Shown here: in pieces, positions 3,333 to 24,335 of the stretch
Numbering within the stretch: position 1 is the stretch's first letter
Layout of the letters: the number at the start of each line of letters is the position of its first letter
Assembly (NCBI RefSeq): GCF_014652535.1
Contig: NZ_BMYZ01000001.1
Location: forward strand, 248,001 to 312,000
Source of the DNA: Cellvibrio zantedeschiae
Lineage (GTDB): Bacteria > Pseudomonadota > Gammaproteobacteria > Pseudomonadales > Cellvibrionaceae
Reading direction: 5' to 3'
DNA length: 64,000 nt
Notes under the pieces: generated by a model
What the model saw: the letters and a program-made list of their open reading frames with translations, nothing else
Databases searched by the model: none
What the model was told of the DNA's origin: nothing
Position numbers and translations under genes: made by a program

Positions 3333-3367
3333 TTTGAAATTTGCTAGTTCGACGAGTAAAAAAAAGG

Positions 3368-3394
3368 AGCCCAGCAATTGCTGGGCTTTTTTTT
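3368..3394 (+). terminator. Intrinsic terminator after the first TBDR
   Basis: A 20-bp perfect palindrome (agcccagcaattgctgggct, 3368-3387) is followed by a run of eight T residues ending at 3394. An A-run before the stem could make it work in both directions. It separates the TBDR from the halogenase-like gene, which must be read through or have its own promoter. Confidence 0.93.
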
Positions 3395-3461
3395 GGATTT
3401 AAAATGCGTAGTGAAAAATCGCGATAGAATGTAGAGTGATGAAAAAAGCAGGGGATTCGCA

Positions 3462-4994
3462 ATGAAAATAAAACGTGTTGCAATTATTGGTGGTGGAACA
3501 GCGGGTTGGCTGGCGGCGAACCATCTTGGTGTTGAATTAAAACAGGATAAAGAAATTGAAATCACTGTGATTGAATCACAACAAATAGGGATTATTGGTG
3601 TGGGCGAGGGTACAGTTCCGCACATTAAAAATTCACTGCAACGTTTTGGTATTTCAGAAGCAGAACTTTTTGCAACATGCGACGTAGCTTTTAAAGAGGC
3701 GATAAAATTTGTTGATTGGTTGAATCCCGAAAAACATGGCGCAGGATATTCTTACTATCATCCGTTCAATACGCCTTATCCGTCTGGTTTTGATGTAACT
3801 CCTTATTGGCTTTCCAATCGCGATGACTTTAATTTTTCTGCAGTAACTCCTCTCACCGCAGTGGCTGACGCTATGCGTTCACCCAAAAAAATATCATCGC
3901 CACCTTATATGGGTGAAGTCGATTATGCTTATCATTTTGATGCGGTTAAATTCGGCAAACTATTAGCCAAAAATGCACGCGAAAGACTCTCAGTTAAGCA
4001 TCTAATTACAACCTTAATCGGCGCGAAGAAAAATGAAGATGGCTCTATCGCAGCCCTAGTGTGTGAAGATGGTTCGGAACTGGAATTTGATTTTTATGTT
4101 GATTGCAGTGGTTTTGCATCATTATTAATTGATCGCGAGTTGAGCGTCCCTTTCATTGATAAGTCTTCGCAAATATTAACGGATACAGCGCTCGCCTTTC
4201 AGGTTCCTACCGATGGGATTGCTGAAATAGAACCTTACACCATTGCGACTGCGCACAAGGCAGGTTGGATTTGGGATATTCCATTATCTAATAGACGTGG
4301 AACCGGATTTGTTTATTCCAGTTCACATATGAGTGAATCCGAAGCTATCGAATATTATTCCAAATATCTCAAAATGGATGCAGATAAACTATCGCCACGA
4401 AAAATTAGTATGAAGGTGGGTTACCGCGAAAAATTCTGGGTTAAGAATTGTGTAGCTTTAGGGTTGGCGCAAGGATTTGTTGAGCCTTTGGAAGCCACAT
4501 CCATACTGGTTACCGACTTTTCAGCAGAATTATTCGCGCGCAATTTTCCGCGTATGAAAGAGGATATTAATGTGTCTTCCGGCTACTGCAACAAAGTGGT
4601 TAGTTATACCTGGGAACGAGTGTTTGATTTTGTGCAGTTGCACTATTGTATTTCTGATAGAAACGATTCTGATTTTTGGCTGGACAATACCAAGTTAGAT
4701 AATTTGTCAGATGTGTTGGCAGAACGTTTGGCTATGTGGAAATTAAATCACCCTAAAAAGCCTGATTTCTTCAGTCGCTTTGATTTGTTTGCGGTAGAGA
4801 ATTATCTCTATGTTTTATACGGTATGAAATATATAACCAGAAAGCCACTGTTATCCAACTATGAGATAGATATTAGCAAAGCACAGTTGCAACAGGTTCA
4901 GCAGGTATCGCAAAAGCTATCCCGTGAATTGCCTGGGCATCGTGAATGGATTACTAAATTTAAGCTTGCCGTGGGTGATGCGTACTCGAGGTAA
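3462..4994 (+). CDS. Tryptophan-halogenase-like flavoprotein (first copy)
   Basis: This 510-residue protein of the PrnA-like FAD-dependent halogenase family has no signal peptide and is predicted cytoplasmic. Visible marks are the N-terminal dinucleotide motif GGGTAGW (10-16), a second conserved GVGEGT (46-51), the lysine of the FKEAIKF segment (K78, matching the catalytic Lys79 of PrnA), the WxWxIP motif (W269, W271, I273, P274) and the glutamate of GFVEPLEAT (E341, near Glu346 of PrnA). ATG start with upstream aggggat. No flavin reductase gene is visible nearby. Members beside TBDRs have no established substrate as far as I know, so tryptophan halogenation should not be assumed. It converges on the DUF6445 gene five bases away. 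Confidence 0.85.
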   Translation: MKIKRVAIIGGGTAGWLAANHLGVELKQDKEIEITVIESQQIGIIGVGEGTVPHIKNSLQRFGISEAELFATCDVAFKEAIKFVDWLNPEKHGAGYSYYHPFNTPYPSGFDVTPYWLSNRDDFNFSAVTPLTAVADAMRSPKKISSPPYMGEVDYAYHFDAVKFGKLLAKNARERLSVKHLITTLIGAKKNEDGSIAALVCEDGSELEFDFYVDCSGFASLLIDRELSVPFIDKSSQILTDTALAFQVPTDGIAEIEPYTIATAHKAGWIWDIPLSNRRGTGFVYSSSHMSESEAIEYYSKYLKMDADKLSPRKISMKVGYREKFWVKNCVALGLAQGFVEPLEATSILVTDFSAELFARNFPRMKEDINVSSGYCNKVVSYTWERVFDFVQLHYCISDRNDSDFWLDNTKLDNLSDVLAERLAMWKLNHPKKPDFFSRFDLFAVENYLYVLYGMKYITRKPLLSNYEIDISKAQLQQVQQVSQKLSRELPGHREWITKFKLAVGDAYSR

Positions 4995-4999
4995 ATATT

Positions 5000-5716
5000 T
5001 CAAAAGGCGACAAAAGTATTAACCGTCAGGCGACCAGTACGTGGATCGGAATTAATACTCCGCCCGGGGTCGATAAGATAAGGTGAATGAATCACGCAAC
5101 TGCGATAAATCACCATTCGATTTAATGCAGCTGGCAAAAAGCCGATTTTGGTAAAGCGTTCGTTGGACTCGGAAAAATATTGCTGCGCTGGTCGCTTTTC
5201 ATTGAGTTCAGCAAAAAACATATCCAGGTAGCGATCTTTGGTCGCTGGAGTAATGAATTCTAAACCTGTTGCATTATGGCGATAAAATGCCGTGCCTCCA
5301 TGTGGTTGGCCGCATAAATATAAAAGAACCGCGAATTGGTTGATGTTGCTGGTATCAAAATGTGGAACGCATTGAAGGGGGCCAAGTTCTTCAGGTTTGG
5401 TCGTCATAAGGGATAGGGCGCATTCACTTTTACCCATTTCCAAATTCTCAGGGATTGCAAATTCGCTGCGAATGAGCGGTTTAATAAAATCAACAATGGT
5501 GTTCGAATAATCTGACGGTGGTGTGAGTCGTAAACCAGGATAGCCCTTACCGGTGCCGTGTCCGGCATAAGGTGAAAAGTTATTTGCTGCTGCAAATGCA
5601 ATTAAATTGTTAGGCTGCTTTAATATATCGTCGATTATTATAATTTTTTGTATTGGATTGTTTGGGTTAAGAATTTTAACGGACAAGTTTTCATTAAGCG
5701 CAAATAGGTTCGTCAC
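5000..5716 (-). CDS. DUF6445 protein, 2-oxoglutarate/Fe(II) oxygenase-like (first copy)
   Basis: This 238-residue protein uses a GTG start (5716-5714) with no in-frame ATG nearby. It carries VPHFD (H119, D121), GGTAFYRH, VIHS (H210) and a C-terminal DPRTGRLTVNTF (R226/R229). That order, HxD, then a distal His, then an Arg, matches the iron and 2-oxoglutarate ligands of prolyl-4-hydroxylase-type oxygenases; the enzymatic role is inference. A paralogue lies at 10999-11769, also beside a halogenase-like gene. It is convergent with the first halogenase gene and has no SapC partner here. Confidence 0.72.
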   Translation of the reverse strand: MTNLFALNENLSVKILNPNNPIQKIIIIDDILKQPNNLIAFAAANNFSPYAGHGTGKGYPGLRLTPPSDYSNTIVDFIKPLIRSEFAIPENLEMGKSECALSLMTTKPEELGPLQCVPHFDTSNINQFAVLLYLCGQPHGGTAFYRHNATGLEFITPATKDRYLDMFFAELNEKRPAQQYFSESNERFTKIGFLPAALNRMVIYRSCVIHSPYLIDPGRSINSDPRTGRLTVNTFVAF

Positions 5717-5995: not shown

Positions 5996-6024
5996 TTGAC
6001 AACGTTGTCTCAAAGGGTTAATCT
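5996..6024 (+). promoter_or_regulatory. Sigma-70 promoter of nagK
   Basis: TTGACA (5996-6001) and TAATCT (6019-6024) are 17 bases apart. The -35 box overlaps the operator palindrome exactly as in the TBDR promoter at 538-566, supporting co-regulation. The predicted start is near 6031, leaving a leader of about 175 bases before nagK. Confidence 0.72.
5998..6009. promoter_or_regulatory. NagR-type operator at nagK
   Basis: Perfect gacaacgttgtc palindrome overlapping the -35 box of the nagK promoter. It is identical to the sites at 540, 576 and 24324. Confidence 0.85.
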
Positions 6025-10998: not shown

Positions 10999-11769
10999 CT
11001 ATTCAATCATAATCAACGTGTTTGCAGTAAGCCTGCCAGTTCTGGGATCATTGTTTAGTTCTGCTGCATTTTGGATGTTGGCTGAATGTAAAATATTGCT
11101 GCGATAAAAAATAGCGCGATTGAATTTAGCGTCAATACTCGCAGTGCGCGCAAATAGCTCATTGTCACCATTTATATAATCAAATGATGTTTTGTGGCTT
11201 TGCATTACTTCGCTTTTAAGCAAGGGCGCGTACTGCTGTAAACGCTGTGCATTCATAGTTTCAAAACCTGTTGTACGGTGGCGATAGAAAGATGTACCAC
11301 CAAATTTGGAATCACACAGGTAATGCACGCTAGCGATATTATTGGTTACAAAACTATCAAAATGCGGCACGCTTTGAATGGGTCGCAAATCTTTCGCGCT
11401 GCTAGTTGCCAGGGATAAAACACTCGATAGCAGTTTAATATTAACCGTGAGTCTTGAGCTGAAAACCATCCACATAGTTTCCATTAAATGTGAATAAACA
11501 TTTTCAGCATAAGTAGGAGATAGTGGCTTGCGAATGCCTGGGTAAAAATCTTTCACATCTTTTTGAAATGCGTGGCCGGACTCCGCATATTGAATCAGTG
11601 AATCAGGCAGCTTTAATAAATTATCCACTACTATGACAGGTTCTTGCTCGTGGCCTACGTAAATAACCTCCAGGGTTAAATCAGGGTTTATGGAAAAGTC
11701 ATAGGTCGGATTGTTTGAATCGTGATTCAAATAAGAGCTCGCTAATTCAGGTTGGGCTAATTGCTGCAT
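10999..11769 (-). CDS. DUF6445 protein, 2-oxoglutarate/Fe(II) oxygenase-like (second copy)
   Basis: This 256-residue paralogue of the protein at 5000-5716 shares VPHFD (H136, D138), FGGTSFYRH, ILHS (H228) and DPRTGRLTANT (R243/R246). The HxD...H...R arrangement suggests an iron(II)/2-oxoglutarate oxygenase (inference). It is the last gene of a minus-strand series (TBDR, halogenase, SapC, DUF6445). Its ATG lies 3 bases after the SapC stop, and its ribosome site (gggaaa) overlaps the end of SapC, which points to translational coupling. Confidence 0.75.
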   Translation of the reverse strand: MQQLAQPELASSYLNHDSNNPTYDFSINPDLTLEVIYVGHEQEPVIVVDNLLKLPDSLIQYAESGHAFQKDVKDFYPGIRKPLSPTYAENVYSHLMETMWMVFSSRLTVNIKLLSSVLSLATSSAKDLRPIQSVPHFDSFVTNNIASVHYLCDSKFGGTSFYRHRTTGFETMNAQRLQQYAPLLKSEVMQSHKTSFDYINGDNELFARTASIDAKFNRAIFYRSNILHSANIQNAAELNNDPRTGRLTANTLIMIE

Positions 11770-11772
11770 AAT

Positions 11773-12504
11773 TTAGTTTCCCGCAAGACGCTTATTTTTC
11801 TTGTCGATCAATCCATAGATATGGCCAATAGAGGTCATCATTGTGTAGATAAAACTTAAATAGCCTTGGGTGTGCAGGCTATTGATGTCTGTAGTGCTTA
11901 GTCTGTTTAAATGCTCTTCATTAATTGTATAAAGGCCTTCAATGCGCGTGGATTCTCCAGATGCAAAAGTGATCTCCAATTGCATTGGTTGCAAAAGTTT
12001 TAAGCTCGCCAGAGTTGTTATAAATGCTTGAGTTGGTTCTTCGCCATTAACGAGTTCTGCCAATATGGATTTTATATTTTTTAAATAAGCTGTTTCCTTT
12101 CCATCGACGTCAAAGATGGCTGTGTTGACGCTGGCATCGGCATTTTCTGGTTGAATACTTTTGCTTCCAGTATCAATACAAATCACAAACTGGCTTTCAT
12201 CGTGCTCTGACTTGCCAAGGAAGAAGGGCTGCCTTCTAATTTGTAGCGGCAAATAGAGTGAATTCCATTGATTGTGGGTAATAAATAGATTTTCACCAGC
12301 TTGAAACCCAAAGAGCGCTACACAATTGAATCTACCCGTGTCCTTGTCCTTCGTCAGGACTATTGGAAATTGTACGGCGAGCTTTAAAAACTCACTGAGT
12401 ACCACAGGCACCATGTTTAAATGGCTGCCTTGTATTTCGGCCGCTTGGATGTTCACGCGAATGCTTTGATGTAGTTGATTGTTAAGCGCGACTAAAGTTG
12501 ACAT
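11773..12504 (-). CDS. SapC family protein
   Basis: This 243-residue cytoplasmic-looking protein has the SapC-family opening (MVPVVLSEFLKLAVQFPIVL, then FNCVALFGFQAGENLF and RRQPFFLG). The family is named after a Campylobacter S-layer gene, but in proteobacteria it commonly sits beside TBDRs and halogenase-like genes, where its function is unknown. There is no signal peptide, which argues against a direct surface role. It is 25 bases downstream of the halogenase-like gene and coupled to the DUF6445 gene. Confidence 0.85.
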   Translation of the reverse strand: MSTLVALNNQLHQSIRVNIQAAEIQGSHLNMVPVVLSEFLKLAVQFPIVLTKDKDTGRFNCVALFGFQAGENLFITHNQWNSLYLPLQIRRQPFFLGKSEHDESQFVICIDTGSKSIQPENADASVNTAIFDVDGKETAYLKNIKSILAELVNGEEPTQAFITTLASLKLLQPMQLEITFASGESTRIEGLYTINEEHLNRLSTTDINSLHTQGYLSFIYTMMTSIGHIYGLIDKKNKRLAGN

Positions 12505-12529
12505 AAGAACACCTGATTTTTATTTATGA

Positions 12530-14074
12530 TTAAACCGTAGCAAAACCATATTCGTGAATTTTATTAATAAGTTCGCGGTTGCTAGGCAGCATGCTTAAGG
12601 CTTTTTTTGTCGCTAGGGCACTTTGTGCAATTTGTTCGCTGGCTAAACGTTGCTCTGAGTAGGTGTGGGCAAGGATATTGGAATCCATTTTAAACCCCAT
12701 TCCATAGAGCACATATTGATAACTGGCGGCGGGAAAAACTTCGTTGTTGCTGGTGAAATCGTGGTTGCTGGGTGAACGATAACGCCAGAGTTGCATGAGT
12801 TCTTTTAAACTATCGGGAATAGTTTCAGGGTTGCGATTGTCCGACCAAAAACTGTTATCTGAGCGTTTGCTCAAAATGTAATGCAATTTTAAGAAATCAA
12901 TAATGCGGTCCCAGCGATACAAAAAGGTTTCATTAAAACGCTTGGCGGTAATATCCATAACATCTCTGCAAGCGGGCAATTGCTCCGCAATCATTTCTGC
13001 CGAGAGTTCTACTAATACAATGGCGGAGGCTTCAAGCGGCTCTAAAAATCCTGCGGATAAACCCACAGCAACACAATTATTTTTCCAGAATAACTTTCGA
13101 TGCCCTGATTGAATTGGTATTTTGCGCAGTGATAAATCCTTTGCGACTGGACCAATATAATCACGTAATACTTGCTCAGCCTGGTCGTGGCTGGTGTGCT
13201 TGCTTGAATAGACGTAGCCAGTACCGCGTCTATGAACCAAACCTATATCCCAAATCCAACCAGCGGCTTGCCCGGTAGAAATAGTATGCGATGCAATGGG
13301 TGAATCTTCGTGTTCGTAAGGGACTTGTGCAGCAATAGCCGAGTCGATAAAAAGTACATCGCTTTTGTCCATAAAAGGAACTTGATAATGCTTGCCCAGC
13401 AATAGCGATGAAAACCCGGTGCAGTCCACAAATAAATCGCCGGCAATTTCACCTTGCTGTGCAGTGGTTACTGATTTTATATCGCCATTGTCGGCAGAGT
13501 TAACGCTGATAACATCGCCTAGGGCATGGGTAACTCCCAATTTTTCTACGCAATGTTTTTTAAGGAATTCCGCAAATTTTCCGGCATTGAGATGATATGC
13601 ATAATTGGCGATGGACGCATATTCCGCGGTGGTAATTAATTTTGGAGCTAAGCCTTTTTCGCAGACCTGTTCTTGAAAGCATACGGCGTCAGAAAAAGAT
13701 TGATGGCTGAATTCTCTTTGCCAATAGGGTGGCAAATCAACTTTATTAAATCCTTGCGGCAACATTAGGGGATGGTAGTAAAAATCATTGGGCGTGCCGT
13801 CAACCCATTTTGCAAATTTCGCACCTTGTTTAAAGGTGGCATCGCACTCGCGCATAAATTCGGTTTCAGAGATGCCCATTTTCATAAGTGTGCTGCGCAT
13901 GGTTGGCCAGGTGCCTTCACCTACGCCAATAATACTGATATTAGGTGATTCTATGAGGGTAACTTTTACGCCAGCGTCGCTGCTGGATTTATGTTTTGCT
14001 GCAATTCGGCCTGCAGTAATCCAACCGGCGGTGCCGCCGCCAACAATCACGATTGATTTAATTGCTGTACTCAT
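12530..14074 (-). CDS. Tryptophan-halogenase-like flavoprotein (second copy)
   Basis: This 514-residue flavoprotein shows GGGTAGW (12-18), GVGEGTWP (50-57), the lysine in ATFKQGAKF (K82, the PrnA Lys79 position) and GFLEPLEAS (E345). The WxWxIP motif reads WIWDIG (273-278), so its final proline is replaced by glycine; the first copy keeps the proline. No flavin reductase is nearby. It follows the TBDR by 126 bases, beyond an intrinsic terminator, and precedes SapC by 25 bases. Chemistry on a substrate imported by the TBDR is plausible but unproven. Confidence 0.85.
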   Translation of the reverse strand: MSTAIKSIVIVGGGTAGWITAGRIAAKHKSSSDAGVKVTLIESPNISIIGVGEGTWPTMRSTLMKMGISETEFMRECDATFKQGAKFAKWVDGTPNDFYYHPLMLPQGFNKVDLPPYWQREFSHQSFSDAVCFQEQVCEKGLAPKLITTAEYASIANYAYHLNAGKFAEFLKKHCVEKLGVTHALGDVISVNSADNGDIKSVTTAQQGEIAGDLFVDCTGFSSLLLGKHYQVPFMDKSDVLFIDSAIAAQVPYEHEDSPIASHTISTGQAAGWIWDIGLVHRRGTGYVYSSKHTSHDQAEQVLRDYIGPVAKDLSLRKIPIQSGHRKLFWKNNCVAVGLSAGFLEPLEASAIVLVELSAEMIAEQLPACRDVMDITAKRFNETFLYRWDRIIDFLKLHYILSKRSDNSFWSDNRNPETIPDSLKELMQLWRYRSPSNHDFTSNNEVFPAASYQYVLYGMGFKMDSNILAHTYSEQRLASEQIAQSALATKKALSMLPSNRELINKIHEYGFATV

Positions 14075-14149
14075 GGTTTCTCCACTCTTTAAAAATTATT
14101 ATTATTTCGGGCGTAAAATTAATCGTTCTTTTATAGCTCTGCTTTAACG

Positions 14150-14179
14150 AAAAACGGGTTGCCAGAAATCTGGCAACCC
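14150..14179 (-). terminator. Intrinsic terminator after the second TBDR
   Basis: A perfect 10-bp stem (gggttgccag at 14156-14165 with ctggcaaccc at 14170-14179) has a 4-base loop and, read on the minus strand, is followed by a T-run after one G. It lies 22 bases past the TBDR stop and upstream of the halogenase, so the downstream trio may be expressed at a lower level or from its own promoter. Confidence 0.88.
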
Positions 14180-14200
14180 AAGGCTGAGGAGAGCATGAAC

Positions 14201-16975
14201 TTAAAACTTGGCTTGTACACCGACAGAAATACGACGACCCGCATCTTCAGCTAACAAGAATTGGTTTGTGTAACGGCCATATTTGGTAACGACTTCTTCG
14301 GTCAAGTTAGTGGCTTCAAACAACACCGAGAAGTTTTCGTTAATTTCGTAACTACCGCTCACATCCCATTGGCCATAAGCTGCTACGTTAACGACACCGT
14401 CACCATTGGTTTGGGTCATTGACTGTAAAAACTTATCACGCCAGTTGTAGGCGATACGCAATTGATATGGACCTTGTTCATAGAAGCCCACAAGGTTTGC
14501 AGAGTTACTGATACCTGTTACCGCAAATTTTTGCGTAATGTCACCGGCTTTTAGATCAGCATCGCTGTTTACTAAAGTACCGTTCACAATTACACCAAAA
14601 CCACTGTCACCAAAGGTGTGTTGCAATGCGATTTCAAGACCATCAACAATGGCTTCTTCACCGTTGCTTGGCAGGGTTACCGTAAATTCTGCAACCTTGT
14701 CATTAGCATCTGGCGCATTTGGATTACTGCCTGAACTTGGGTCAGTCAACAAACTTCCTGTGCTGGTAACGAAGGTTTGTTTTTTGGTTCCGGTAGTAAT
14801 GAAGTTACTTACGTCTTTCCAGAAATAGCCAGCAGATACGTAACTCGCATCGCCGTAATACCATTCCAATGACAAATCCAAATTGTCAGAAAGGAATGGT
14901 TTTAACGCGGGGTTACCTGCAGTAGCAGTCAATGTGCCTGGACGAGTTGTCACAATATTAGTCGCTGGAGTCATGCTGTTAAGTGGCGCACGCGTCAGTG
15001 AGCGTGACGCTGCCAAACGAGCAATGACATCATCCGTAATATTTAAATTAAAACTCATGTTTGGCAGGAGCGCTTTGTAAGATGCGTCTGTATCAATAGG
15101 CGATGCAGAACCATATACAGTACTCATTTCAGTTTGATCGAGAATTGTCAATTTTTCTGGCGAGCCTTGCGTACCCACAACTGTTACATCGGTGCTTTCA
15201 AGGCGCGCACCTGTAGTTGCTTTCAATGGCATGTCTGCAATTGATGTTGCGAAATCAAATTCAAAATAAGCTGATGTGGTTTTCTCTTGTACTACGTAAG
15301 AGATATCTGAACGCTTAGCATCAAAGTCTGCACCACTCTTACTTTCAAGGAATGCAAATTGTTGTTCGCCATTGTGACGCAACCAACTTGTTGGTGTTCT
15401 GCCATGACCGCTGACGTTATTTAAGAAATCACTACCTGCATTAAATACTGTCAGGAAATTATCGGGAATATCCGGTGAATCCGGGTAACCACAATATACG
15501 CAGTGCACACCACCAATTTCGTTGGTCCAGTAGGCTAAGGATTTGCTTTCATCGGACGACATCAAACCGAATTTAGCAGCAACCAAACCTGAGTCTGAAC
15601 CTTCTTTCCAGATACCATCCATTTTGTATTGTTTGATATCGTCTTCAACTTCCCAACCGCGGCGCAACATTACATGTGCGCGACCATTGGCAGGATCAAG
15701 ATAGTTGGACACGTTGTGCAAAGTACCATCGTAATTCAAGCCATTGGCTGCGCTTTGGAAATTGCTTACCCATGGCAAGGTGGCTGAGTCAGATTGGAAG
15801 CGCACACGGTTTTTGTAACCAATTAATGAAAGTTGGTTGCCGCCACCGTTGTTTGCATCGCGCGTTGCATTTGATTTGGAAATATCAAAAACAATATTCA
15901 GTTTATCTGTTACATCCCAATCGGCTTGCAAGCCGTAAGACTTGGTACTGGTTAAACGATCGAATTTTTTCGCGTGGAAATCTGTTGCCAAACCGGTCTC
16001 TTGGTAAAGATCGATAATGGTTCCGTTGGAATCTGTTTTTGCGCTTTCAACATTGGGTGCGGTGAACCAATGACCATAAGAAGTTGCATCAGTTTCAATA
16101 TCAAAATCTGAAAAGAGTGCATCTGCAGTCAAGGTTAAATTGTCTTGCGGTTTGTATTGCAATACTAAATTGGTATTGGTACGGGTACGTTCTTCAAAGG
16201 TAACTTTGGTGTCGTAGTTACGCGGCGAAAACACGTTGCCAGCGAAGCCTGCGCCACTGTTAAGTTCTGCTTTTGGAATCCCCGCATTTTCCAACCAACC
16301 GTCGGTTTGCGCTTGATTCAAGCGAGTGTTGGCTTCTTTGTGCGATACAGCAAGCAGCGCACCGAACGTTCCATCGCTAAAAGTATCGCTGATTAACGCA
16401 GAGTATTCTGGTGTGGTGTCACCGCTATTGTTATCGTTGAGTGCTTTGATTGAACCTGCAATTTTTAATCCGTCCCACGCGAGCGGGCGCGCCGTAGTAA
16501 TGTTTACGGTTGCACCAATGCCGCCAGATTGCTGAGTTGCAGTTGCGGTTTTATACACGTTAATACTGTTAACCATATCGGCAGAAATGGTGTCAAAACT
16601 AAATGCACGCGTATCATTTTCCGATGCCATTTGGCGACCATTTACCAATACTGTGTTGAAGTCAGGGCCAAAGCCACGCACAGTAATTAATTGGCCTTCA
16701 CCGCCGGCGCGATCAATAGATACACCTGTAATACGCTGCAAAGATTCTGCAAGGTTTTGATCTGGAAATTTACCAATATCTTCAGAAGAGATTGCGTCCA
16801 CAACACCATTACCATCGCGTTTAATATCTTGTGAACGCATCAAGCTACCACGAATACCTTCAACAATAACTTCGTCGACTTCACTGGATGCTTCTTGTGC
16901 AATGGAGTATTGAGCTGCTGACATTGTTGCCGTAATGGCAAAAATGGCGCTCGATAATTTTCGTTTTTTAAACAT
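14201..16975 (-). CDS. TonB-dependent receptor with halogenase/SapC neighbours
   Basis: This outer-membrane receptor of about 924 residues starts at the ATG of MFKKRKLSS (16975), preceded by aggggaa; the frame stays open 78 codons further upstream without a credible start. It has a signal peptide ending near SIAQ, a plug (SSEDIGKFPDQNLAESLQRI, ITVRGFGPDFNTVLVNGRQ) and a barrel ending in QAKF. There is no N-terminal STN domain, so it cannot itself signal to the FecR-like protein encoded upstream. It is of the large carbohydrate-type TBDR class. The substrate is unknown; placement inside the nag locus suggests an amino-sugar polymer. Confidence 0.88.
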   Translation of the reverse strand: MFKKRKLSSAIFAITATMSAAQYSIAQEASSEVDEVIVEGIRGSLMRSQDIKRDGNGVVDAISSEDIGKFPDQNLAESLQRITGVSIDRAGGEGQLITVRGFGPDFNTVLVNGRQMASENDTRAFSFDTISADMVNSINVYKTATATQQSGGIGATVNITTARPLAWDGLKIAGSIKALNDNNSGDTTPEYSALISDTFSDGTFGALLAVSHKEANTRLNQAQTDGWLENAGIPKAELNSGAGFAGNVFSPRNYDTKVTFEERTRTNTNLVLQYKPQDNLTLTADALFSDFDIETDATSYGHWFTAPNVESAKTDSNGTIIDLYQETGLATDFHAKKFDRLTSTKSYGLQADWDVTDKLNIVFDISKSNATRDANNGGGNQLSLIGYKNRVRFQSDSATLPWVSNFQSAANGLNYDGTLHNVSNYLDPANGRAHVMLRRGWEVEDDIKQYKMDGIWKEGSDSGLVAAKFGLMSSDESKSLAYWTNEIGGVHCVYCGYPDSPDIPDNFLTVFNAGSDFLNNVSGHGRTPTSWLRHNGEQQFAFLESKSGADFDAKRSDISYVVQEKTTSAYFEFDFATSIADMPLKATTGARLESTDVTVVGTQGSPEKLTILDQTEMSTVYGSASPIDTDASYKALLPNMSFNLNITDDVIARLAASRSLTRAPLNSMTPATNIVTTRPGTLTATAGNPALKPFLSDNLDLSLEWYYGDASYVSAGYFWKDVSNFITTGTKKQTFVTSTGSLLTDPSSGSNPNAPDANDKVAEFTVTLPSNGEEAIVDGLEIALQHTFGDSGFGVIVNGTLVNSDADLKAGDITQKFAVTGISNSANLVGFYEQGPYQLRIAYNWRDKFLQSMTQTNGDGVVNVAAYGQWDVSGSYEINENFSVLFEATNLTEEVVTKYGRYTNQFLLAEDAGRRISVGVQAKF

Positions 16976-17195
16976 CTTGAATATTTCCCCTAAAAATTTA
17001 TTGTTAATAATGGGATGAGCCTGGATCAACGTGTTAGCTATTCGGTTATCCAAAAACACGTTAGTACTAAGACGGGGAGCTATTGCGAATCCGCTCCCGT
17101 GAGGAAAAATATTTTTGATGAGGGGGTGTGAGTGATCTTTTGGGTAGATAAAAGCGGGAATTAAATAAGGGAATATAATCTGGAGTGAGGATGAC

Positions 17196-17221
17196 TCCCT
17201 ACTTATCAAATTAAGTAGGGA
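17196..17221. repeat. Perfect inverted repeat between the fecR-like and TBDR genes
   Basis: A 10-bp perfect stem (tccctactta/taagtaggga) has a 6-base loop and lies 15 bases past the FecR-like stop. No T-run follows on the minus strand. It may be a weak attenuator, a processing hairpin or a dyad operator upstream of the TBDR, whose start is about 220 bases further on. Confidence 0.6.
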
Positions 17222-17235
17222 AGGTAGAGCGAAGT

Positions 17236-18276
17236 TTATTTAGTGTTGTGCGGAATATTATCCACATCACTGCGCGAAACAATCACAATATTATTTTGTG
17301 CGTCACGTTCTAATACTACGGGCAATGAGCTTGCCAGCATTTCAGTTAAAGAGTCGATTTGATTAGTGCTCACTGCTGCAGTAACTTTTAAATCCGCCAG
17401 ATTTTTTGAGCCAAGACTAATTGAGCTACTAAAATAGCGATTGGCATCGGCTACAACATCGGCAAGGCTTGCGCGCAAATAGATTAAGCGTCCGTTGCGC
17501 CAGGATTCCAGTTCAGAAACTGAAATAGAATTTACCGCTTCAAATTTTCCCTCATTTAAACGCGTAACTTGTTGCCCGGCAGTAAGCACCACGGGTGCTA
17601 AATTTGCTGATTTCGTTGCGCTGGAAACATTCACAATGCCTTCCAATACGGCAACGCGTGTGCGATCTGAACCTTTACGTACATCAAATTGAGTGCCTAC
17701 TACGCGCACTTTGGTTTCGCCTGCATCTACCCAGAATGGGCGCTCCGGATTTTTTGCAACTTTAAAGAAAGCCTGGCCACTCACTAAAATGATATGACGC
17801 TCTTTATTGGTCGCCCATGCTTTTAATTCGGATTTTGCGCCCAGTGTTATTTCGCTGCCGTCCTCAAGGATAAATGTTTTTACTTCGCCGGTTGCAGTCG
17901 CGAATTCCTGAGTGGTAATTTTTTCGGGTTGCAATCCAATGACGGCCACAACCAAAATCGCCGCAGAGGCTAGCGCAACGCCTAAGGGTGATTTTGGTTT
18001 TAATGCGTGCAAGCCAGAGAAAATGCCATTGCGTATAGTTTCAAACAAGGATGGTTTGACCGAGCGCTTGAGCGCGGCCAATTCTTTAGTATTTTTTAAA
18101 TTACCCAAATCTTGCCAGATCATTTCGTACTGATCATAGGCATGTTGATGTGCGCTATCTGCTTGCAACCATTCTTGAAAATGCTGTTGCTCTAATTCAC
18201 TCACGGAACCCGACTGCATTAACGTAAACCACTCTCTGGCTTCGTTATTGATGCGTTCCAACTGATCTGCTTGCAT
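17236..18276 (-). CDS. FecR-like anti-sigma/signal-transduction protein
   Basis: This inner-membrane regulator of about 346 residues has an N-terminal cytoplasmic DUF4880 segment (INNEAREWFTLMQSG, then FQEWL and HQHAYDQY), one transmembrane segment (about 100-118, LGVALASAAILVVAVIGL) and a periplasmic FecR domain (FATATGEVKTFILEDGSEITL, GTQFDVR, VAVLEGIVNV). FecR proteins hold or activate a partner ECF sigma factor in response to a TBDR carrying an STN domain. I give the ATG start at 18276; an in-frame TTG at 18297 that overlaps the sigma stop is also possible. It forms a pair with the sigma gene. Confidence 0.88.
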   Translation of the reverse strand: MQADQLERINNEAREWFTLMQSGSVSELEQQHFQEWLQADSAHQHAYDQYEMIWQDLGNLKNTKELAALKRSVKPSLFETIRNGIFSGLHALKPKSPLGVALASAAILVVAVIGLQPEKITTQEFATATGEVKTFILEDGSEITLGAKSELKAWATNKERHIILVSGQAFFKVAKNPERPFWVDAGETKVRVVGTQFDVRKGSDRTRVAVLEGIVNVSSATKSANLAPVVLTAGQQVTRLNEGKFEAVNSISVSELESWRNGRLIYLRASLADVVADANRYFSSSISLGSKNLADLKVTAAVSTNQIDSLTEMLASSLPVVLERDAQNNIVIVSRSDVDNIPHNTK

Positions 18277-18293
18277 AATAAAGTTTCGCAACC

Positions 18294-18845
18294 TCAACTC
18301 TGGGCTTGTAATGCTTTATGGCAATCTGCCAGTGCATTAGAAATATGTTTACGTACGACGGTTTCTGATAAGCCAACCTGACGAGCTATTTCTGCATAAG
18401 ATAATCCATCAAAGCGGCTCATCATCAGTAATTGCCGACGCTTTTGCGGCATTCCCCAGAGTGCTCGTGAAATAATCCCCAACCGCTGCTTGCCTTCAAC
18501 TTCTCGCTCGGGGCCAACAGCTTCAATAATTTCTGCGTCGTTATCTACAACCGATTGCGTGTAGCGATTTTGCACTTGATTGTGCCGCTTCAAATCAATC
18601 GCAATGTTGTAACTGGTGGTATATAAAAATGCACGCGGATTTTCAACCGAGAGCGGTGACTCCATTCCAACAAAACGCGCAAAGGCTGAATGCACTATGT
18701 CTTCAGCTTCACTGGATTTCACCCCACATTTATTCACAATGTAGCGGCACAGTTCTTCGCGATGTTGAAGATAGATATCACGCACATAATCTTCTTTATT
18801 ATCTGTGCTCACAATATCTGTCCGAAGGTTTTGTAATGGGCGCAT
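18294..18845 (-). CDS. ECF sigma factor, FecI-like
   Basis: This ECF sigma-70 factor of about 183 residues has region 2 (YLQHREELCRYIV, AEDIVHSAFARFV, RAFLYTTSYNIAIDLKRH) and region 4 (MPQKRRQLLMMSRFDGLSYAEIARQVGLSE). The ATG at 18845 is chosen; a TTG six codons upstream is an alternative, and neither has a strong ribosome site. It is followed directly by the FecR-like gene and is divergent from an STN-type TBDR 340 bases away, the usual three-component surface-signalling layout. Likely targets are the TBDRs on either side (inference). Confidence 0.88.
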   Translation of the reverse strand: MRPLQNLRTDIVSTDNKEDYVRDIYLQHREELCRYIVNKCGVKSSEAEDIVHSAFARFVGMESPLSVENPRAFLYTTSYNIAIDLKRHNQVQNRYTQSVVDNDAEIIEAVGPEREVEGKQRLGIISRALWGMPQKRRQLLMMSRFDGLSYAEIARQVGLSETVVRKHISNALADCHKALQAQS

Positions 18846-19184
18846 AGGCTGACTAGCGCTCAATAACAGCAGAGCAGGAGGCTAGCCGCTCTGGTGTGGT
18901 GTTGGATTCTGCTAAAGCATAGCGTGAATTCATGGTTAACGCCTATTTAACTGCCATTTGGTTCTTACTTATTGTTGATGCGCATGGTGTTTTTGCGGCT
19001 CATGTCCGGGAACAAAAAGCTATCCACCGACTAAGACGTATGAGCCTGCCGAATCCGCTCCCCTTGGTTAAATTATTTTTTGTAAACGGTTTCGAGTTTG
19101 GTTTGCGACCCAAGTCAACCTCTTATGGGGCGCGGCTTTCGACAGGGTGGTGTTTTTCCTATATAAATAGCCACCTTTTATGAA
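18846..19184. other. Divergent promoter region between sigma factor and STN-TBDR
   Basis: About 340 bases separate the two divergent genes. An 83-codon plus-strand frame fills most of it but has no ribosome site or family signature and is probably spurious. No NagR-type palindrome is present, in line with control by the sigma/anti-sigma pair. I could not identify an ECF promoter with confidence. Confidence 0.5.
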
Positions 19185-21998
19185 ATGGCTTCCATCTCCC
19201 TATTGCCTATGAAAAATGCGTGTGTCCGCACATTGTTAAAGCATGTCTTCCTGCTCGTGATGAGTTTGGGCAGCGTGTTTGCTGTGGGGGCTTATGGTCG
19301 AAATGAATCTGAGGCTGTCATTCAATTTGATATTCCTGCCCAGCCTTTGGATGCGGCTCTGTTAAATGTATCCGCACAAGCGAATGTGGATGTGCTGGTT
19401 TCCTCGACTTTGGTGACGCCTTATAAATCACCGGTAATTAAAGGTGAGATGACCTTGTCGAAAGCGTTAGATCAATTGCTGCAAGGCACTGCACTGACTT
19501 ATAAAATTAGTAAACAGCAACGCGTAACTATCTCGGCGATTAAAAAGCCCCAGCCTAAAACTTTGAGCGAAACTCCTAAAGCTGTAAAAGCGATAGAGGA
19601 GGTTATTGTCACCGCGACCAAGCGTGCTACTGATCTGCAAAAAACACCTATTGCGGTGACGGCGTTAAATCAGGCGAACCTTAATCAATATCAAGCCAAA
19701 GATATTCGCAACCTCACGGACGTTGTTCCCGGTTTGGAAATGACCAACACCGGTGAGCAATCTGCGCTTTTGGTACAGCTGCGCGGCATTGGCCAAACCA
19801 ATATCACTGAAATTGCAGATGGCCCCGTAGCCTTGCATATAGATGGTGTTTATTCCCCGCGCGCGCAGGGCGCCGCAACGCTGCTTTATGATCTCGACCG
19901 AATAGAAGTTTTGCGCGGCCCCCAGGGTACTTTGTTTGGGCGCAATGCAACGGCGGGGGGAATCAATATCCAAACTGAAAAGCCCAAGCTTGAAAGTGTG
20001 TCTGCTGAATTGGCAGTGACTCTGGGAAATTACGAACACGAAGCGCTTAAGGCGACGGTAAATATTCCAGTGACAGAAACCTGGGCCCTACGTTTTGCGG
20101 GCGCGCTTGATAAACACGATGCATATACCAAGCTCATCAATAATTACGCCGGTCTTGGGCCGCAATATCCCGCCACCGAAGCTGAATTAAATACTTATCA
20201 AAAAGCAGCCACCAATGCGCAAGGGCCAGATGCGGATGATCAGCGCGCGCTTCGCCTTTCCAGCTATTGGGAACCCACAGAAAATTTTCATTGGTTTGCC
20301 AGTCTTGAACATTATCTTGATCAAGGCACCAGTGTGACTGAGTTGGATCCAACTTTGGTTGCGCGCGGTATGCGTGTGACTGTGTCAGATACACCATCTT
20401 TTATTGACTTAACCAATAATACTTTTCGTTCGCGCATGGATTACACCTTTGCCAATGAACAAACGCTAAGTTACATCGCTGGCACCGCGGTTATGCGCCG
20501 CGAGCAGGGTTTTGATCAGGACATGGGGCGCAGTGGAAATTACGAACAACGCCGCACCGATAATTCGACCTTTCGCTTTCGCTCCCACGAGTTGCAATTA
20601 ATTAACAGCGATAAAGAGCATTTGCGCTGGATTGTGGGCGCATTTGCATCGCAAGAACGCAACGATATTGTTTATGCAATTGATCAGGCTGATGACGATG
20701 GCCACGGTGACCCCACAAAAACTACCAGTTTTATTAGCGATTTCGGCGGTGCTGCCACAGCAATTTTTGTGCAACCCGATCGACGTGTTGAATCTAAAGC
20801 TGCATTTGCACAAATCACTTACGATGTGAATGAACGCAATCGTTTCACCGCAGGTGTGCGTCATACCAGAGACACTAAGTCAGATGAAGGCGGGCGCAGT
20901 TTAAATTGTCGCGTAACGGGAATGGGCCCCTATCTCACTAATGATTCGATTGGTCATGGTGCGCCCAAGCCACATCAAATTTACGCAGACGCAGGAGCGC
21001 AAGCGGCAATTGCTGCAGGCTTGCCTTATGACGATGGTACTCATGTTGGTATTGGTGATCAGGTATGTTGGACACGGCAAGTTAATGATTATTCTGCAAC
21101 CTGGAAAAACACCAGCGGTTTATTGCGCTATGAATATGATGTGCACGCAGACGTTATGAGTTATGCATCAGTTGCGACAGGTTTTAAATCGGGTCACATT
21201 CAAGATCGCGGCAATGAAGCAAAACCGGAAGAAGTCATCAATTACGAATTGGGTTTGAAATCAACTTTGCTCGATGGAAATTTGCGTTTAAATGCAGCGC
21301 TCTATCAAGCTGATTACACTAATCTGCAATTTTCGGATCGCGATTTATTTGATACCAACGGCGATGGCGTGGTGGATCGCGTTACTAGCACTGTTGTGCG
21401 CAACGCCGCAGCGGCAACGGTAAAAGGGTTGGAAGTTGAAATCGATTGGGCGATCACCGGTAACGATTATGTTCATTTTGCTTCTGCTTTAATGAATGCG
21501 CGTTTCGATAATTTTCAAACGCCAGATACTTTATTTGGCAATTTATTTAATCCTTATGTAGATAGTGCAAGCGGGCGTGCGGCAAAAATAGTTGAGCTCT
21601 CAGGTAATGCTCCGGTGCGCGCGCCTGATTGGAAGTTTACTTTGGTGTATAAGCACGATTTTGAATTGAGTAGCGGTGTAGTTTCAGCACAAACCAAAGC
21701 CACTTTTTCGGATGAATATTTTTTAGATATCTATAACCGGACTAATTTAGCCGCCGAAATTTTTAAAAGTGCACCCAATGGTGCAAAAGATTTGGCAGTG
21801 CAAAAAGCATATCGCTCTTATGACATAAGTCTGCGTTATGAGTCCAATAATAATTGGGCGTTGGAAGGCTTTATTAAAAATGTGACTGATCAAAATATAA
21901 AAACCTCATCAGGCACTTTTATTACACCGGGTGGATTTGATGCGATTTTTTTGCCACCGCGCACCTTTGGTGTAACCTTGAGTTATCAGTTTAAATAA
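19185..21998 (+). CDS. TonB-dependent receptor with N-terminal STN signalling domain
   Basis: This outer-membrane transducer of about 937 residues has a signal peptide (core LLKHVFLLVMSLGSVFAVGA), a secretin/TonB N-terminal (STN) domain at about 47-97 (IQFDIPAQPLDAALLNVSAQ, LDQLLQGTALTYKI), a TonB box region (EEVIVTATKR), a plug (VALHIDGVYSPR, LRGPQGTLFGRNATAGGI) and a barrel ending in SYQFK. The STN domain contacts FecR-like proteins, so it is the likely sensor for the divergent sigma/anti-sigma pair. An ATG at 19209 is an alternative start that gives a shorter signal peptide. The plug is of the siderophore/xenosiderophore-like class, unlike the other two TBDRs of this locus. Confidence 0.88.
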   Translation: MASISLLPMKNACVRTLLKHVFLLVMSLGSVFAVGAYGRNESEAVIQFDIPAQPLDAALLNVSAQANVDVLVSSTLVTPYKSPVIKGEMTLSKALDQLLQGTALTYKISKQQRVTISAIKKPQPKTLSETPKAVKAIEEVIVTATKRATDLQKTPIAVTALNQANLNQYQAKDIRNLTDVVPGLEMTNTGEQSALLVQLRGIGQTNITEIADGPVALHIDGVYSPRAQGAATLLYDLDRIEVLRGPQGTLFGRNATAGGINIQTEKPKLESVSAELAVTLGNYEHEALKATVNIPVTETWALRFAGALDKHDAYTKLINNYAGLGPQYPATEAELNTYQKAATNAQGPDADDQRALRLSSYWEPTENFHWFASLEHYLDQGTSVTELDPTLVARGMRVTVSDTPSFIDLTNNTFRSRMDYTFANEQTLSYIAGTAVMRREQGFDQDMGRSGNYEQRRTDNSTFRFRSHELQLINSDKEHLRWIVGAFASQERNDIVYAIDQADDDGHGDPTKTTSFISDFGGAATAIFVQPDRRVESKAAFAQITYDVNERNRFTAGVRHTRDTKSDEGGRSLNCRVTGMGPYLTNDSIGHGAPKPHQIYADAGAQAAIAAGLPYDDGTHVGIGDQVCWTRQVNDYSATWKNTSGLLRYEYDVHADVMSYASVATGFKSGHIQDRGNEAKPEEVINYELGLKSTLLDGNLRLNAALYQADYTNLQFSDRDLFDTNGDGVVDRVTSTVVRNAAAATVKGLEVEIDWAITGNDYVHFASALMNARFDNFQTPDTLFGNLFNPYVDSASGRAAKIVELSGNAPVRAPDWKFTLVYKHDFELSSGVVSAQTKATFSDEYFLDIYNRTNLAAEIFKSAPNGAKDLAVQKAYRSYDISLRYESNNNWALEGFIKNVTDQNIKTSSGTFITPGGFDAIFLPPRTFGVTLSYQFK

Positions 21999-24323: not shown

Positions 24324-24335
24324 GACAACGTTGTC
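24324..24335. promoter_or_regulatory. NagR-type operator at nagB-II
   Basis: Perfect gacaacgttgtc palindrome 45 bases upstream of the nagB-II start, identical to the sites at 540, 576 and 5998. On the minus strand a TTTACA-N17-CACAAT candidate promoter lies just upstream, so here the operator would sit immediately after the -10 box. That promoter call is weaker than the other two. Confidence 0.83.

Follow-up and report, generated by a model that had tools for sequence, protein, structure and literature searches.

A TonB-dependent receptor subfamily recurrently linked to halogenase-type, SapC and DUF6445 proteins, and its putative split signalling regulon in Cellvibrio zantedeschiae

We report here on a seven-gene module of the gammaproteobacterium Cellvibrio zantedeschiae that combines an extracytoplasmic function (ECF) sigma factor, a FecR-like anti-sigma factor and a TonB-dependent receptor bearing an STN domain with an operon in which a second TonB-dependent receptor is followed by a flavin-dependent halogenase-type protein, a SapC-family protein and a DUF6445 protein. 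The module lies in a 64,000-nucleotide stretch of DNA (contig NZ_BMYZ01000001.1, positions 248,001 to 312,000), hereafter the window, within which all coordinates are numbered. The link between receptor, halogenase, SapC and DUF6445 is recurrent. The best overall explanation, to which we give a probability of roughly 0.4, is a split cell-surface-signalling regulon whose enzymes mature the receptor. The wiring of this regulon, from sensor through FecR and sigma factor to the receptor-enzyme operon, is probable, and the receptor polypeptide is put forward tentatively as the target of the enzymes.

Gene organization and a shared ECF-type promoter motif

Profile scans matched the families and coordinates of all seven genes described in the initial annotation, six on the minus strand and one divergent. 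The minus strand carries, in order of transcription, genes for an ECF sigma factor (18294-18863; Sigma70_r4_2 and sigma70-ECF matches), a FecR-like anti-sigma factor (17236-18297; PF04773, 79.4 bits, and PF16220), a TonB-dependent receptor of the TIGR01782 type (14201-16975; 643 bits, cut-off 310) with no Pfam STN match, a flavin-dependent halogenase-type protein (12530-14074; Trp_halogenase PF04820, 412.9 bits), a SapC-family protein (11773-12504; PF07277, 218.9 bits) and a DUF6445 protein, a probable 2-oxoglutarate (2OG)/Fe(II) oxygenase (10999-11769; PF20043, 252.7 bits). The reading frame of this receptor is open to a TTG at 17209; its start is probably the ATG at 16975, because an AGGGGA Shine-Dalgarno-like sequence precedes that codon and a signal-peptide-like start, judged by eye, follows it. 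By the same inspection, no signal peptide was seen in the halogenase-type, SapC and DUF6445 proteins. The last four genes form a compact operon with intergenic gaps of 3, 25 and 126 bases; its sole transporter gene is the receptor, and the profile scan found no synthetase or exporter family among its genes. On the plus strand, the STN-bearing receptor at 19185-21998, the probable sensor, has plug, barrel and STN domains (PF07660, 33.7 bits; cut-off 28.4) and stands outside the TIGR01782 type, with no match to that model at E ≤ 0.001. As in systems of the FecI/FecR/FecA type, the ECF sigma gene adjoins a FecR-type anti-sigma gene, and an STN receptor stands nearby, here in divergent orientation.

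An ECF-type promoter-like motif, GGGAGCGGATTCG-N11-CGTCTTAGT, is found in two exact copies in the window, both on the minus strand: one precedes the receptor-enzyme operon (17066-17098) and the other the sigma-FecR genes (19030-19062), where 0.00 copies are expected at up to three mismatches. It was not found upstream of the STN receptor. The core, GCGGATT-N13-CGTCTTA, is preserved at both positions in three loci fetched for comparison (L035, L036 and L039), and the whole 4.27-Mb genome contains three exact copies of it and one with a mismatch, as opposed to 0 for the reversed control. The third exact copy precedes a paralogous sigma-FecR-STN receptor-halogenase-SapC operon on contig 3. Since the core copies sit at these places and the NagR-type boxes described below do not, the sigma factor most likely serves itself, the receptor-enzyme operon and the paralogous operon, and not the genes for N-acetylglucosamine (GlcNAc) use. 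The shared motif lends sequence support to the sigma/anti-sigma control of the operon that the initial annotation had put forward.

Probable separation of the sensing and operon receptors

A profile of 71-72 residues, which replaced one whose additional linker residues gave false positives, was used to score STN in 169 TIGR01782-type receptors from the fetched loci, without removal of near-copies. The domain tracks the signalling genes: 19 receptors have STN with sigma/FecR genes within 2.5 kb, two have STN alone, six have sigma/FecR genes without STN and 142 have neither. Of the two with STN alone, the one in L045 has a sigma gene beyond the enzymes and the one in L047 lies on a short contig. 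A separate STN receptor stands beside the sigma/FecR genes for five of the six STN-less receptors (in the window, L035, L036, L039 and L199), and L217 shows none. The initial annotation had likewise assigned sensing to a receptor other than that of the operon, and on this point it agrees with the wider sample. When only receptors that have sigma/FecR genes near and a halogenase at most 1.5 kb away are considered (n = 14), nine carry their own STN, two of them from the genus of the window, and five do not.

The closest relatives of the window's operon receptor in the genus (L166 and L185) have their own STN and belong to sigma-FecR-receptor-halogenase-SapC-DUF6445 operons, with no nag gene called within the 18 kb fetched. 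Because these relatives carry the domain themselves, the split in the window is a departure from them, one that fits the notion that one receptor senses and another imports. A similar split is present in seven Alteromonadaceae loci (L047, L064, L067, L071, L073, L074 and L097), but there the sensor is of the TIGR01782 type. The motif, at up to two mismatches, precedes the halogenase-linked receptor in all seven and the sensor in none, and the sensor of L057 likewise lacks it. Over all split loci, at the same threshold, the motif was found upstream of the halogenase-linked receptor in 11 of 11 cases (the window and ten others) and upstream of none of the sensors (8 Alteromonadaceae-type and 4 window-type cases); the background is 19 matches in 2189 other upstream regions, a count in which the halogenase-linked receptors of split loci are included.

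In several STN-bearing receptors (L031, L041, L043, L045, L166, L175 and L185), an internal ATG, often accompanied by a Shine-Dalgarno-like sequence, is followed by a second signal-peptide-like stretch. The arrangement looks like the fusion of an STN part to a complete receptor, or like a gene that yields two products. Ten fused sequences were compared, nine of which have an internal ATG ahead of the second stretch. The Shine-Dalgarno energies of five of these nine fall within the lowest ~13% of 146 other in-frame ATGs, and those of the remaining four at 33%, 33%, 41% and 71% (Mann-Whitney p 0.002; L041 and L043 are near-copies of each other). As L049 keeps the internal stretch without a methionine and L110, outside the ten-sequence test, has a TTG, we regard dual products as a lead and not as a result.

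Association of the enzyme set with a receptor subfamily

The genome encodes 14 halogenases, 5 SapC proteins, 3 DUF6445 proteins and 17 TIGR01782 receptors above the cut-off; 12 of the 14 halogenases lie within about 3 kb of such a receptor, and 10 of the 17 receptors have a halogenase neighbour. In three relatives of the same genus, at least 30 of 46 halogenases among the matches listed have a listed receptor no more than 5 kb away, whereas circular shifts yield a summed mean of about 2.8; of the 83 halogenases and 90 receptors in these genomes the comparison covered 46 and 65, respectively, so that its counts are lower bounds. The neighbourhood of receptor and halogenase is beyond chance. Ten genomes of the genus (G094-G103) contain 11-32 halogenase-family genes and 9-33 TIGR01782 receptors each.

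The initial annotation had named co-occurrence of the three enzyme-like families with TonB-dependent receptors across genomes as a check on its interpretation, and such co-occurrence was found. The loci seeded with DUF6445 were the best 80 of 169 in the GTDB collection and lean to window-like DUF6445; 76 were counted, four having no called DUF6445 reading frame. Within 6 kb, a receptor is present in 64 of the 76, a halogenase likewise in 64, SapC in 48 and a JmjC-type cupin in 24. Two gene orders are the most frequent among uninterrupted runs: receptor-halogenase-SapC-DUF6445 (20 runs, from records that we take by their names to be alpha-, beta- and gammaproteobacterial) and receptor-SapC-Cupin_8-halogenase-DUF6445 (18 runs, the cupin being JmjC-like). 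Gaps of at most 50 bases make up 67% of the 205 within runs, and the receptor leads in 60 of the 61 runs that include one.

Within the genus, linkage to the enzymes follows receptor descent. On a FastTree tree of 83 receptors, on which a few long branches meet at this point, linkage changes 9 times, as opposed to 27.6 times with shuffled labels, and the distances between halogenases correlate with those between their receptors (Mantel r 0.58 for 81 pairs; largest of 2000 shuffles, 0.13). In the genus sample (L166-L225), enzyme-linked receptors adjoin glycoside hydrolase (GH) genes of families 3, 5, 9, 13, 18, 81 and 97 together with porphyranase-type and alpha-1,3-glucanase genes, and unlinked receptors adjoin GH28, 43, 53, 88, 95 and 127, melibiase and NAGLU types and phytases, with no GH family in common. 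Among the nearest large neighbours of linked receptors, 19 of 21 distinct candidates were examined and 14 proved carbohydrate-active; among those of unlinked receptors, 20 of 23 were examined and 11 are glycoside hydrolases. This comparison is an after-the-fact look in which orthologues recur, and not a test. Judging from these gene neighbourhoods, the three proteins encoded beside the receptor appear to belong to a receptor type and not to one glycan.

The halogenase-type, DUF6445 and SapC proteins

The closest solved structure to the halogenase-type protein is 2PYX (571 bits). The protein has the glycine-rich flavin motif GGGTAGW at its N-terminus, and its Lys82 and EPLE glutamates align with those of the named tryptophan 5-halogenase 8FOV. 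A lysine and a glutamate are catalytic in flavin-dependent halogenases, of which WxWxIP is the family motif. Among the 14 halogenase copies of the genome, K82 is present in 13 and E345 in 14; WxWxIP is not kept in the window protein, which like 2PYX reads WIWDIG (WIWTIP in 8FOV), and the IP is kept in 10 of the 13 other copies. The middle gene of a halogenase triplet (L029:9192-10748) has lost both the glycine-rich flavin motif and the catalytic lysine and is a probable pseudoenzyme.

In DUF6445, H136, D138, H228 and R246 are invariant across 68 sequences, forming an HxD...H...R pattern; HxD...H and a later arginine have roles in 2OG-Fe(II) oxygenases. The AlphaFold2 model (predicted local distance difference test (pLDDT) 92.2) has 13 PDB matches at E ≤ 0.001, mostly 2OG oxygenases such as HygX, PHD2, P3H1 and GriE, at template-modelling (TM) scores of 0.2-0.5 and about 10% identity, and a three-sequence profile found no PDB sequence match. 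The fold and pattern make a 2OG/Fe(II) oxygenase probable. In the sister operons, Cupin_8/JmjC-type proteins are found, and this class is known to include protein hydroxylases.

The model of the SapC protein (pLDDT 95.8) has no Foldseek match in the PDB at E ≤ 0.001. S-layer proteins, from which the name SapC derives, are exported and have a signal peptide, although some lack one; no signal-peptide-like start was seen by eye in the window's SapC. In a class-wide sample, SapC was found in 11 of 94 genomes, C. zantedeschiae included. Of the 13 SapC genes outside that genome, two accompany a receptor and a halogenase (L156 and L158, the latter missed in reading-frame calling and placed from a separate SapC search), three are near neither, and eight have an open frame of at least 1200 residues no more than 1.6 kb away. 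SapC genes near such giant frames include those of L150, L151, L153, L155, L157 and L161. Four of these frames were scanned: one has a TPS domain (L161), one RTX repeats (L150), one other repeat-type matches and one no match; some may be spurious, in G+C-rich genomes. In C. zantedeschiae itself, one SapC gene (L026:9854-10597) has no receptor or halogenase called within the 20 kb fetched.

Proposed mechanism and alternatives

Starting from the observed gene content, shared motif, association of STN with sigma/FecR genes, recurrence and tie to a receptor subfamily, we propose the following. The signal flow would follow that of known FecIRA systems: the STN receptor would bind an outside ligand and its STN domain would signal via FecR, freeing the ECF sigma factor, which would read two promoters in the window, its own and that of the receptor-halogenase-SapC-DUF6445 operon. 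Transport would be carried out by the second, STN-less receptor. SapC might hold or guide the unfolded receptor chain before its export, and modification of receptor side chains might fall to the flavoprotein together with the 2OG oxygenase, or with the JmjC-like cupin in sister operons. The receptor, or another exported protein, is our first choice of target because of the receptor-bound inheritance of the set, its many glycan contexts, the types of oxygenase involved and the other neighbours of SapC; we favour it over an imported ligand. The leading position of the receptor gene in the conserved runs and the lack of a visible signal peptide in the three window proteins also speak for it. A more general proposition goes further and is rather doubtful at present: that the members of a receptor subfamily are made together with SapC and with cytoplasmic enzymes of their own, of the flavin halogenase type and the 2OG/JmjC type, as a receptor-maturation system, in which, for example, tryptophan or other aromatic residues along the glycan path are modified before export and which, in some lineages, a sensor receptor apart from the importer switches on.

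Several observations weigh against this explanation. The motif core lies within two mismatches upstream of just 11 of the 27 sigma genes examined (seven exact); the sigma genes of L064, L067, L071 and L074 have a match only when three mismatches are allowed, and that of L097 has none, so that either the promoters of other lineages differ or the motif tolerates more variation. The sigma genes of L166 and L185 gave one three-mismatch match and none, respectively. The tree and Mantel results speak of common inheritance and not of function, and ligand class is confounded with receptor type, since GH neighbours differ. The enzyme set is also lineage-bound: in four genomes from other families of the order, halogenase matches number 0, 3 (weak), 0 and 0, and TIGR01782 receptors, in the same sequence, 0, 1, 0 and 0. 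No column of W, H, Y or N is near-universal in 45 linked and rare in 38 unlinked receptors, and a universal target residue was rejected accordingly. The best W columns reach 62% of linked and 8% of unlinked receptors, and 51% and 3%; the clearest contrasts, R993 (93% vs 21%) and A920 (89% vs 16%), are probably subfamily marks. Finally, the known flavin halogenases act on small or carrier-bound molecules (PMC5945002).

The strongest alternative, which we consider possible although somewhat unlikely, is that the enzymes hydroxylate or halogenate, in the cytoplasm, an imported ligand or its breakdown product, such as an aromatic, a phenolic or a peptide part carried with a glycan. An enzyme set fixed to a receptor would suit such a role, as would the different GH families adjoining linked and unlinked receptors, and PMC5945002 describes slow bromination of free indole by BrvH, whose site may admit larger substrates. 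The operon, however, has no transporter gene besides the receptor, the neighbours of linked receptors range over starch-, cellulose-, chitin- and agar-type enzymes as well as genes unrelated to glycans, such as those for adenylosuccinate synthetase and UvrD, and one halogenase of C. zantedeschiae adjoins a GH95 gene, a family seen in the sample beside unlinked receptors.

It is distinctly unlikely that the enzymes build a small halogenated or hydroxylated molecule, siderophore- or signal-like, that is released and then retaken by the receptor. FecI/FecR with transducer receptors serve mostly iron signalling (PMC1790865), and a halogenase together with an oxygenase could conceivably tailor an amino acid; but neither the operon nor the conserved runs contain families other than those named above, no synthetase or exporter family was found among the genes of the window operon, and the receptors belong to the TIGR01782 type and frequently adjoin glycoside hydrolases.

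The initial annotation had placed the module in GlcNAc use, as processing a modified amino-sugar polymer, and this role now appears very unlikely. The module does lie between nagK/nagP/nagX and nagA/nagB in the window, beside nagX, nagP and nagK in L035 and L039, and about 4 kb from nagX in L036. The surrounding locus carries nagK, a major facilitator superfamily (MFS) gene, nagX, a second MFS gene, nagA, an SIS-domain gene taken as nagB and a LacI regulator, names that are our reading of Pfam matches. The palindrome GACAACGTTGTC occurs in four exact copies in the window (0.15 expected at up to one mismatch): two before a receptor gene starting at 633 (540-551 and 576-587), one before NagK (5998-6009) and one before NagB/NagA (24324-24335); from these positions it is taken as the putative operator of the LacI regulator (NagR). 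A scan of the window found no such box in or before the module, which has its own ECF motif. In addition, L166 and L185 are free of called nag genes over the 18 kb fetched, as are most of the other lineages fetched.

A second receptor/halogenase/DUF6445 set, absent from the initial annotation, lies in the same locus at 633-5716. It consists of a TIGR01782 receptor (633-3332, plus strand; 576.9 bits), a halogenase-type protein (3462-4994, plus strand; PF04820, 430 bits) and a DUF6445 protein (5000-5716, minus strand; PF20043, 223.2 bits). With its two NagR-type boxes, this set is the better candidate for a GlcNAc-linked one, and related sets adjoin nag genes in the Cellvibrio records L075, L083, L088 and L096. 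The enzymes at nag loci differ between genomes: halogenase and DUF6445 in the window and in G102 (L205), SapC and Cupin_8 in G099 (L177), and three halogenases and SapC in G096 (L206).

That the genes merely hitchhike as neighbours without joint function is hardly credible: receptor families may well grow by whole-locus duplication, but the same gene order recurs in 20 and in 18 runs and a promoter motif is shared.

Implications

The interpretation offered in the initial annotation is, as a whole, partly supported. Flavin halogenases without an assigned substrate are common, and the recurrent association of the group described here with SapC, two oxygenase families and a single receptor subfamily provides a place to look for their job. 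A motif with only three exact sites in a genome of 14 halogenases invites direct experiment, and the split of sensor and importer, seen in two lineages, allows a test of whether transport is obligatory for a signalling receptor. If the enzymes do mature the receptor, many orphan "tryptophan halogenases" would have an outer-membrane protein as their native substrate.

Comparison with known systems

DUF6445 shares with the 2OG-Fe(II) oxygenases HygX, PHD2, P3H1 and GriE the fold and the HxD...H...R pattern; it aligns with them at TM-scores of only 0.2-0.5 and ~10% identity, and a three-sequence profile of it has no sequence match in the PDB. The halogenase-type protein belongs to the same Pfam family as the orphan indole-type halogenases BrvH and Xcc4156 (6FRL, 250 bits; 6Y1W, 233 bits), but resembles 2PYX, 9LTB and 9LU2 more closely, and reads WIWDIG in contrast to the WIWTIP of 8FOV.

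Earlier annotations have noted, in passing, halogenase genes next to TonB receptors. In the literature searched, which leaves out most subscription papers, no paper was found that states the receptor-halogenase-SapC-DUF6445 link; to that extent the remark in the initial annotation that the three families have no established role in this setting stands, while the link itself proves recurrent. The native substrate is stated to be unknown for BrvH and three Xanthomonas halogenases (PMC7336383), doubt is expressed whether indole is the native substrate of BrvH (PMC5945002), and 83 of 103 halogenases in a genome survey lie outside biosynthetic clusters (PMC8269204); "TonB" has 0 occurrences in the texts of the three. 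Conversely, "halogenase" has 0 occurrences in the texts of PMC1790865, PMC7142613 and the xyloglucan locus paper PMC4285296. One study reports that rebH/prnA transcripts of Colwellia and phages were raised with dispersant, and mentions a TonB receptor apart from them (PMC11337851). PMC4911050 was rejected as a source on SapC, "SapC" being there the name of a clay.

Like the carbohydrate-utilization (CUT)-type loci (Blanvillain 2007, PMC1790865), the loci described here have carbohydrate-linked TonB-dependent receptors; for the CUT-type loci, that paper names FecI/FecR with transducer receptors, and its text has 0 occurrences of halogenase, SapC or tryptophan. The closest parallel in regulation is FecI/FecR/FecA signalling, with which the window shares the ECF sigma factor, FecR, the STN receptor and a sigma gene that appears to control itself and a receptor operon. 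In contrast to that system, the sensor and the operon receptor of the window are two genes of different families, the sensor lacks the ECF motif and the motif-bearing operon receptor lacks STN, and the proteins encoded in the regulated operon include a halogenase-type protein, SapC and DUF6445.

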